A program made the translations under genes and the position numbers. Below are positions 31,129-32,272 of a stretch of 64,000 bases of DNA, piece by piece. Every line of letters begins with the position of its first letter. The first letter of the stretch is position 1. The stretch comes from Pseudomonas hormoni (GTDB lineage: Bacteria; Pseudomonadota; Gammaproteobacteria; Pseudomonadales; Pseudomonadaceae), in the NCBI RefSeq assembly GCF_018502625.1, contig NZ_CP075566.1:6265001-6329000 (forward strand), written 5' to 3'. The notes beneath the pieces are model-generated. The model searched no databases and was not told the origin of the DNA. It worked only from the letters and a program-made list of their open reading frames with translations.

Positions 31129-31527
31129 CCTGTGGGAGCTGGCTTGCCTGCGATGGGGACCTCATGGCTGGCGTGATTTTGTGGTGGTGTACATATCCGT
31201 TGCTGCGGTTACGGCGGCTAATGGTTTCGCCCTTACGGCGAGTCACTTGGAGAAGCGCCAAGTAACCAAGCGCTTTTGCCCCTTTCGTTCGGAGCCTCGC
31301 CTAGGCTCGGCATGCCCTCCTTCCGGTCCTGCTCCGTGGGCCCGCCGCCATCGGCCATCCATGGCCGGGGGCGGCTAACCCGGCATCCCTGCCGGGTTGC
31401 CCACTGCGCAGAACCTCCACTCGGCGTGAGGGGGCGACTACCGCCAATGCAACCGAGGCGGCCTACCGGCCGGCCTGTCATTTGAAGCGTTCGCGTTCCC
31501 CTGTGGGAGCTGGCTTGCCAGCGATGG
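31129..31527. repeat. Repeat-like intergenic element bounded by two direct REP units
   Basis: The boundaries are two direct near-copies of CCTGTGGGAGCTGGCTTGCC-type REP units, at 31129-31156 and 31500-31527. Between them are about 340 bases with several palindromes: GAGCCT/AGGCTC near 31300, CGGCCATCCATGGCCG at 31352-31367, and AACCCGGCATCCCTGCCGGG at 31377. No convincing protein is encoded: the open frames have no ribosome sites and odd composition. Sequences of this kind recur between genes in Pseudomonas genomes (from memory). Its origin and role are unknown. Confidence 0.6.
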
Positions 31528-31753
31528 TCGTCAACGATGACGCGTGCTGCCTGAATGAACGCGGCGCACTTAAGTCCATCGCCGCAAGAATGAATTTGCA
31601 TCTGCCTGATCACGGTAAAAACCAAGGAATGAGGGCATGTCCGAGAAAGGTGTAGGAAGTCTCCGAGACGTATAAACCATGTTTTTCTTCGCTTAAGGCT
31701 CGCCTATAGTTTGTCCGTCGCCGATGAATCGGTGATGGACCTTAGCCGGTCGT

Positions 31754-31783
31754 TTGAGAGGAATGCACGAGCGCCCGTATAAT
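31754..31783 (+). promoter_or_regulatory. Near-consensus sigma-70 promoter
   Basis: TTGAGA at 31754-31759 and a perfect TATAAT at 31778-31783, 18 bases apart. Transcription would start near 31790, giving a leader of about 160 bases that contains the three-way-junction RNA before the small gene at 31952. Confidence 0.65.
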
Positions 31784-31819
31784 CGCGGTGCTATTTGCTG
31801 CCTGACATATCTGTCTATG

Positions 31820-31893
31820 GTGGCTGTGCGTGGGACATCTTCGGGTGTGCCGGGTTCCTCTGACCGGTCGGCTAACCCACGTACAGCTGCCAC
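31820..31893 (+). ncRNA. Predicted three-way-junction structured RNA in the leader of the small gene
   Basis: Pairing by eye gives a compact fold. P1: 31820-31834 pairs with 31876-31893, 15 base pairs with one G-U and a three-base bulge (GCT at 31886-31888). P2: ACATC-TTCG-GGTGT at 31835-31848, a hairpin capped by a UUCG tetraloop. P3: GCCG at 31849-31852 with CGGC at 31869-31872, and an inner GGT/ACC. It lies 37 bases after a strong promoter and 58 bases before the next ATG. It may be a cis-acting leader or a processed small RNA. The shape recalls phage C4-type antisense RNAs, but I could not compare it with a model. Confidence 0.55.
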
Positions 31894-31951
31894 TCCATTC
31901 GATTAGCCGCGAAAAGGGTGGGAGTTTCATCTTTCAGAAGGAATTCATGCC

Positions 31952-32221
31952 ATGTCCAGATACCACCCGCTCCAAGGCAACTTCAGCGTCGGCCCGACGC
32001 TATACATCGACACCGAAGCCCGCGCTTCCGATCTTCTTGAAACCGCCGTCCATCGACTCAAAGCCGCACGTAATCTGCTCAACAGCGTCACCTGCCTGTG
32101 CATCAAAAACGCCGAAGGACACGACCTGGAGCATTTCGCCAACGCTGCGCACATGTTGATTCAGGACGGCTGTGACGCCTTGGATGTGCTGGGCTGGAAG
32201 CTGGAAAAAGCTGTACGTTGA
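31952..32221 (+). CDS. Small protein of unknown function (89 aa)
   Basis: An 89-residue soluble, probably helical protein with no signal peptide. It contains TLYIDTEARASDLLETAVHR near residue 16, LLNSVTCLCIKNAEGHDLEH near residue 42, and a C-terminal DALDVLGWKLEKAV. I recall small Pseudomonas proteins of the DUF3077/DUF6124 sort with this size and setting, but cannot place it firmly. The ATG at 31952 follows AAGGA (31938-31942) by nine bases. The gene is a single unit, with its own promoter, structured leader and terminator. Confidence 0.7.
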   Translation: MSRYHPLQGNFSVGPTLYIDTEARASDLLETAVHRLKAARNLLNSVTCLCIKNAEGHDLEHFANAAHMLIQDGCDALDVLGWKLEKAVR

Positions 32222-32230
32222 AAACGAGAA

Positions 32231-32255
32231 AGCCGCGATATTCGCGGCTTTTTTG
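32231..32255 (+). terminator. Rho-independent terminator of the small gene
   Basis: AGCCGCGA, three-base loop, TCGCGGCT, then a run of Ts. It lies between convergent genes and may also serve rsgA poorly. Confidence 0.88.
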
Positions 32256-32272
32256 TGTCTGCGGGAAGCAGT

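Follow-up and report, generated by a model that had tools for sequence, protein, structure and literature searches.

A probable C4-family antisense RNA ahead of a small-protein gene in Pseudomonas hormoni, with many chromosomal copies that carry different loop codes

The stretch of the Pseudomonas hormoni chromosome analyzed here (the window, 64 kb) was found to contain a compact unit between motB and rsgA in which a structured leader precedes a ribosome site, an 89-codon open reading frame (ORF), and a terminator. The structured part of the leader is a C4-family antisense RNA with two segments complementary to sequence at and near the ribosome site of the small gene; it is predicted to be excised from a transcript shared with that gene and would probably block its translation. 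C4 RNA is a regulator of phage lysogeny and belongs to an established antisense RNA family. This known phage regulator has likely spread into many chromosomal copies, each with a code of its own. The analysis showed the C4 fold, its complementarity to flanking targets, the co-change of C4 with those targets, and 18 C4 RNAs above the curated score with 18 different b' loops in one genome. The features of the unit are listed in Table 1.

Table 1. Features of the C4 unit in the window
Feature	Position	Strand	Basis or remark
Predicted -10 box TATAGT, likely the true promoter	31705..31710	+	Kept in most ortholog rows and in C4-less orthologs
5' leader hairpin, core 31720-31733	31717..31736	+	Folding, 15 sequences
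Small hairpin GACC-TTAGCC-GGTC with a1 in the loop	31738..31751	+	Folding, 15 sequences
a1, TTAGCCG	31742..31748	+	Exact complement of C4 a'
b1, holds the earlier-claimed '-35'	31753..31764	+	Complementary to the b' loop; co-changes with b' among orthologs
Hairpin resembling a terminator, T-rich tail; lies after a1b1 and before C4	31770..31797	+	-10.3 kcal/mol; claimed 'TATAAT' in the loop
C4 antisense RNA, RF01695 match	31813..31897	+	Covariance model; junction at 31818-31892
b' loop of C4, GTTCCTCTGA	31854..31863	+	Loop of the second C4 hairpin
a' of C4, CGGCTAA	31869..31875	+	Junction strand
a2, TTAGCCG	31903..31909	+	Exact complement of a'
b2, TCAGAAGGAA	31934..31943	+	Over the Shine-Dalgarno site; pairing with b' needs one extra A
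89-residue protein gene	31952..32221	+	ORF; predicted fold a beta hairpin with two long helices
Rho-independent terminator hairpin and T run	32229..32256	+	-21.9 kcal/mol, z -5.8

A preliminary description of this DNA had claimed a three-way-junction leader with a 15-bp closing stem, and had proposed that it be searched against Rfam and examined for covariation. The leader matched the Rfam model of C4 antisense RNA (RF01695) at 75.2 bits, above the cut-off of 45 (E 3.4e-14). Folding bore out the closed three-way junction (-42.7 kcal/mol, z -4.9), and equal stability was reached in none of 200 shuffles. The closing stem, the UUCG hairpin, and a second, GC hairpin are all present, with 17 pairs in the stem. 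The claimed ribosome site, ORF, and terminator were found as well, and NCBIfam matches for the four neighbors tested (motA, motB, rsgA, and oligoribonuclease) agree with the claimed position of the unit. In the covariation analysis, 19 of 26 pairs of the C4 fold changed on both sides and 99.2% of cells were paired, a result seen in none of 500 shuffles that ignore relatedness among loci (88 distinct rows; 98 rows including three partial or reverse-strand matches). A fold made without an alignment was poor. In the lowest-energy fold at the window, the second hairpin is shifted and half of a' (four bases) is paired, with an unpaired probability of ~0.25; the C4-type fold lies 0.7 kcal/mol above it. 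When the C4 cores of 89 loci were folded in isolation, most of a' stayed free of pairing in 87 and most of b' in 85. The leader had earlier been offered as a cis-regulator, a processed small RNA, or a C4-like antisense RNA. It is the last option that the covariance model, the covariation, and the matched targets bear out; the other two may hold in part, because C4 is expected to arise by processing of the same transcript that carries its target gene.

How closely is each C4 matched to its own targets? In the window, where both downstream targets lie near the ribosome site of the 89-residue ORF, a' is complementary to a2 exactly and b' to b2 with one extra A. The wider comparison used a non-random sample of 89 distinct C4 loci, made up of the P. 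hormoni copies except L019, the 30 best scorers of a genus survey, 29 loci from seven genomes, and orthologs. These remained from 98 model matches after three partial or reverse-strand matches and six duplicates were dropped. a' was fully complemented by a2 in 82 of the 89 loci and by a1 in 83. Non-cognate pairs drawn from other a' classes gave an exact a2-a' complement 12 times in 6934, and a control region gave one in 0 of 89 cases. An ORF of at least 50 codons lies behind C4 in 81/89 loci and starts 44-58 bases past C4 in 75/81, and b2 lies over the Shine-Dalgarno window in 72 of the 75 loci whose start codon comes 40-60 bases past C4; these three counts carry a wrong frame for L010 instead of the 89-residue ORF of the window. 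In permutation tests that ignore relatedness among loci, a C4's own targets outmatched others for each of a1, a2, b1, and b2 (0 of 5000 partner permutations each), and b matching persisted within a single a' class of 80 loci (0 of 5000). The cognate target was best or tied best for a2 in 85 and for a1 in 80 of the 89 loci; for b' it was best in only 48 (b2) and 32 (b1).

The P. hormoni genome itself holds 19 C4 matches, 18 of them above the cut-off, and these 18 display 18 different b' loops and 14 a' sequences. Most of the copies lie beside a sequence that fits their own code. Among pairs that share a full a' match, the mean b' score was 18.6 for cognate pairs (n=13) and 10.9 for non-cognate pairs (n=10). 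The b'-b2 score at the window, 14.5, was the lowest of the 13 cognate pairs, level with L018. Cofold binding energies were close to zero for cognate and non-cognate pairs alike, by a method that is unable to draw loop pairing. One of the copies, L009 (genome positions 3174919-3175005), is a well-formed C4 with no ORF at the usual distance, and its C4 may act in trans because its a' fully matches a2 of L004. Another two, L013 and L016 (6220972-6221794), are tandem C4 units ~650 bases apart with similar genes.

The leader upstream of C4 carries a second set of targets, a1 and b1, and here the promoter had been placed earlier. The string TTGAGA-18-TATAAT is present and agrees with the consensus at 11 of 12 bases (shuffled sequences hold a mean of 0.4 promoter-like sites), but the ortholog alignment speaks against a promoter role. 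TTGAGA occurs in three of 13 ortholog rows and elsewhere changes together with the C4 loop. For example, the three TTGAGA rows have the loop CCTCTGA with GAGAGGAA upstream and CAGAAGGAA or CAGACGGAA downstream, and rows G129, G114, G049, and G005 have the loop CATCTGT with CAGATGAT upstream and CAGATGAGA downstream. Because the upstream and downstream variants follow the C4 loop variants across rows, the hexamer is part of b1. TATAAT sits in the loop of AGCGCC...GGCGC, which is followed by T's, and it is missing in four of the 13 rows (G038, G101, G070, and G044) and in L079. The better promoter candidate is likely TATAGT, 73 bases upstream of TATAAT, which is retained even where C4 is gone. 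It matched at five or more of six bases in 46 of 82 leaders as against 12 of 82 shuffled ones, and 27 of the 46 begin 37 bases before a1.

Two further elements lie in the leader. The first is a hairpin that presents a1 in its loop. Of its four pairs at the window, two have changed on both sides, one of them in 3 and the other in 1 of 15 sequences, and a1 is mostly in a hairpin loop in only 36 of 82 leaders when 24 bases are folded alone. The second is a terminator-like hairpin of -8 kcal/mol or lower within the last 75 bases before C4, found in 54 of 89 loci as against 8 of 89 shuffled sequences and 4 of 87 elsewhere. The T run of this hairpin is broken at the window (ATTTG) and reads TTTTT in 10 of 13 ortholog rows; the window hairpin was absent from a terminator scan. 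The c4-a1b1 model (RF03163) scored 20.6 bits at the window, below its cut-off of 46.7, and was above the cut-off at 5 of the 19 P. hormoni C4 loci. The Rfam model of IsrK (RF01394) gave no match at the window and a match exactly at the cut-off at L001 (50.0 vs 50 bits). At two loci of other members of the order (L125 and L128), isrK overlaps c4-a1b1 directly before C4.

In phage P1, c4 has a1b1 upstream and a2b2 downstream, b2 covers the ribosome site of the ORF that follows, and the operon under c4 control contains the cell-division inhibitor icd. The window unit resembles c4 of P1 and P7 in a fold above the curated cut-off, in a1b1 upstream and a2b2 downstream, and in the location of b2 on a ribosome site. 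It differs from them in being chromosomal, in having an 89-residue protein as its target instead of icd/ant, and in having 18 copies above the cut-off in one genome whose b' loops are all distinct. Passages of two papers state that c4 repression acts around the ant ribosome site (PMC12197685) and that Ant synthesis is repressed in trans by c4 RNA (PMC8546580). A second precedent is the Salmonella prophage Gifsy-1, for which parts of PMC4825925 describe a short terminated RNA, IsrK, that opens translation of its own read-through mRNA, with a processed RNA, STnc1160, downstream. The layout at this orf45-anrP locus, which the window unit would share, runs from a promoter through a short leader with a terminator to a processed read-through RNA and a small ORF; the processed RNA, at the position of C4, shares complementary sequence with the leader (PMC4825925). 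Unlike Gifsy-1, the window has no isrK match and no antirepressor gene after the small ORF. The same passages liken the IsrK locus to CI RNA, seqA, and seqC of P4, an antisense RNA with targets upstream and downstream in its own transcript (PMC4825925). The P4 system, which the window unit resembles in this arrangement of targets, is described there as one of transcription termination.

By analogy with P1 and Gifsy-1, C4 would repress the gene and an IsrK-like leader would relieve that repression. Transcription would start after TATAGT. Some transcripts would stop at the terminator-like hairpin and yield a short leader RNA with a1b1, and those that read through would include C4 and the mRNA. 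C4 would then be cut from the read-through transcript, pair with a2 and b2, and silence the gene. As the short leader holds the target sequence too, it would titrate C4 away and free the gene again, much like the short IsrK that opens its own read-through mRNA in Gifsy-1. Across the 19 P. hormoni loci, duplex energies of cognate pairs were below those of non-cognate pairs by 4.3 kcal/mol downstream and by 9.1 kcal/mol in the upstream leader (0 of 20000 permutations each; the upstream and downstream windows are of unequal length). The larger cognate gain of the leader fits a closing role of C4 and an opening role of the leader. In Gifsy-1, extra STnc1160 failed to counter IsrK and growth arrest became more pronounced, according to parts of PMC4825925. 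A simple titration in Gifsy-1 is disfavored because the extra STnc1160 strengthened IsrK-mediated growth arrest.

An alternative, considered unlikely, is that C4 acts mainly on transcription; it would bind nascent a1b1 and set the passage of polymerase through the terminator-like hairpin, in the manner of P4 CI RNA. The larger cognate gain of the upstream target, the terminator-like hairpin after a1b1 in 54 of 89 loci, and the P4 layout in the passages of PMC4825925 are consistent with such a switch. However, a pure transcription switch does not need a2, which is kept as exactly as a1 (82 vs 83 of 89), and 35 of the 89 loci lack a hairpin at the -8 kcal/mol threshold. The element could also be a purely cis-acting structured leader, an attenuator or a ligand sensor with no antisense action, as the presence of a well-structured element in the 5' leader of a gene might suggest. 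This reading is very improbable: a self-contained sensor does not predict the co-change of loop and target across loci, and the C4 family is an established antisense RNA. The idea of a decaying prophage remnant with no function draws on the known occurrence of C4 in phages and on three P. hormoni copies (L004, L009, and L012) that have no ORF at the usual place. It is extremely unlikely in view of the compensatory changes in the fold and a dN/dS of 0.09-0.17 in eight C4-bearing orthologs (0.09-0.23 against all 13). The neighbors, moreover, are unchanged in 10 of 13 orthologs (motB and/or rsgA within ~1.5 kb; protein identity at least 76%), and this also leaves the earlier impression of a mobile or recently gained unit without support.

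Relatives without C4 bear on a further alternative, a pair like a type I toxin-antitoxin system in which C4 would serve as the RNA antidote to a harmful small protein. An antisense RNA beside a small protein in many copies per genome would be in keeping with such a pair, and so would the presence of icd in the c4-controlled operon of P1. The pair is nevertheless improbable. Seven relatives (L071, L072, L074-L076, L078, and L079) have an intact ORF and no C4 before it; their proteins are 72-92% identical to that of the window, with a dN/dS of 0.10-0.23 in the five tested. Relatives that lost C4 and still keep the gene intact argue against a lethal protein that C4 restrains, and the protein gave no match in Pfam, NCBIfam, or PADLOC. 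Control of these orthologs by a C4 in trans was considered and rejected, since six of the seven genomes lack the exact a' pattern and its one match, in G088, lies by eye outside any C4-like sequence. A looser a' pattern was not commoner than a reversed control in most of these genomes. The breakpoints vary, with the terminator-like hairpin kept in L079 and lost in the other six, a difference that suggests at least two losses of C4. The a1 sequence TTAGCCGG is retained in the leader of all seven, so the leader may have another role. These C4-less orthologs provide ready natural comparisons.

What kind of protein would the antisense RNA control? The product of the window gene had been called an orphan. 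This holds insofar as it belongs to no Pfam or NCBIfam family, but it has 12 paralogs in its own genome and relatives throughout the genus. No antirepressor gene lies downstream of the window C4, and the 89-residue protein has no such domain. Its predicted structure is a beta hairpin with two long helices (pLDDT 89); a search with this model found no match at E 0.001 in the PDB or among viral models, and a sequence search of the PDB found nothing below E 0.2. Among the best 80 of at least 555 genome loci that encode relatives of the protein, C4 was directly upstream on the same strand in 46, elsewhere in the locus in eight more, and present as a cut-off fragment in one. A plasmid search gave no match. 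A phage search gave one match of 32%, in an unannotated 7.4-kb record with no C4 match in the stretch examined. Two of the P. hormoni paralogs, L028 and L029 (genome positions 3233484 and 1404847), have TATAGT and no C4 directly upstream. Their a1 (TTTGGCGA) is that of the C4-bearing paralogs L002, L005, and L006, and because a1 is shared, the C4 RNAs from these three loci could conceivably act on L028 and L029 in trans.

C4 mostly stands ahead of small proteins, including DUF6124, DUF3077, Bro-N, and unnamed ones. In the 81 C4-linked ORFs, DUF6124 accounted for 19, DUF3077 for 8, and Bro-N for 7, and the remainder had no convincing family. DUF6124 and DUF3077 are Pfam families of small Pseudomonas proteins that, like the window protein, stand behind C4 RNAs; the window protein matches neither. 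In profile comparisons, the window family had a weak relation to DUF3077 (12% probability) and a negligible one to DUF6124 (0.3%), so that neither relation is clear. The two DUF families themselves may be distantly related, to judge by a profile-comparison probability of 61%. An unnamed family of ~52 residues also lies behind C4 (L035, L041, L048, and others; 14 aligned), and the one member searched had no match in NCBIfam or PHROG. At L061, L093, L052, L051, L057, L095, and L121, C4 precedes proteins of 172-175 residues that look similar to one another. The one Bro-N example searched matches phage antirepressor families, and the Bro-N units are a possible link between phage and chromosomal C4 units.

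C4 was above the cut-off in 183 of 199 Pseudomonas genomes surveyed, many with at least 20 copies, and seven relatives had 18, 24, 30, 32, 32, 41, and 50 matches at E 0.001. Among 145 genomes drawn from the order, C4 was found in 20 including that of P. hormoni, and the other 19 carried one to six. Searches of 14 control genomes found none. Parts of PMC2864571 list both c4 and c4-a1b1 for phages, and among bacteria c4 for Proteobacteria and c4-a1b1 for gamma-Proteobacteria. No report of multi-copy C4 in Pseudomonas, or of a link between C4 and DUF3077 or DUF6124, was found in a search of open-access papers. The overall picture looks like a multi-copy chromosomal C4 with co-changing codes, tied to DUF6124, DUF3077, and unnamed small-protein families of uncharacterized function. 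A broader proposal, held tentatively and at somewhat less than even chances, is that the C4/IsrK circuit has become in Pseudomonas a genus-wide set of mutually insulated three-part RNA switches, tens per genome, in which a leader activates, C4 represses, and the target lies at the ribosome site, each with its own code and each with one small helical or Bro-N protein. If true, it would possibly exceed any other natural collection of orthogonal antisense switches known from one bacterial chromosome, would show the takeover of a phage circuit by its host, and would offer a natural set of such switches for use. It would also give a handle on the small-protein families, which could be expressed or silenced by their own RNA. 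Bacterial C4 copies could be mistaken for prophage leftovers. In IMG/VR contigs (L133-L150; 23 loci found), C4 was upstream of the gene in 12 of 15 loci tested. Because many of these loci are near a contig end, they may represent flanking host sequence or cargo of proviruses.

Two minor observations concern sequences outside the C4 unit. The pattern TTAGCCG...AGAGGAA has one occurrence in the P. hormoni genome outside the locus, where it falls on the ribosome site of a catalase gene (identified by a partial reading that scored below the cut-off of the NCBIfam catalase HPII model). A role of this gene as a trans target was rejected as coincidence, as the site is also present in genomes with other b' codes (G129, G002, G101, and G061) or without the locus C4. 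TTAGCCGG lies just upstream of catalase, independently of C4, in 12 of the 15 Pseudomonas genomes in which the start was read, of 19 in total (L268 and L271-L288). The other observation concerns the repeat-like neighbor reported earlier. It proved to be a dispersed repeat of ~300 bases at 31180-31480 of the window, with 51 matches in the genome, itself included, and it is this repeat, outside the C4 unit, that contains the Rfam TwoAYGGAY match. Copies of the repeat often occur in inverted pairs ~500 bases apart.
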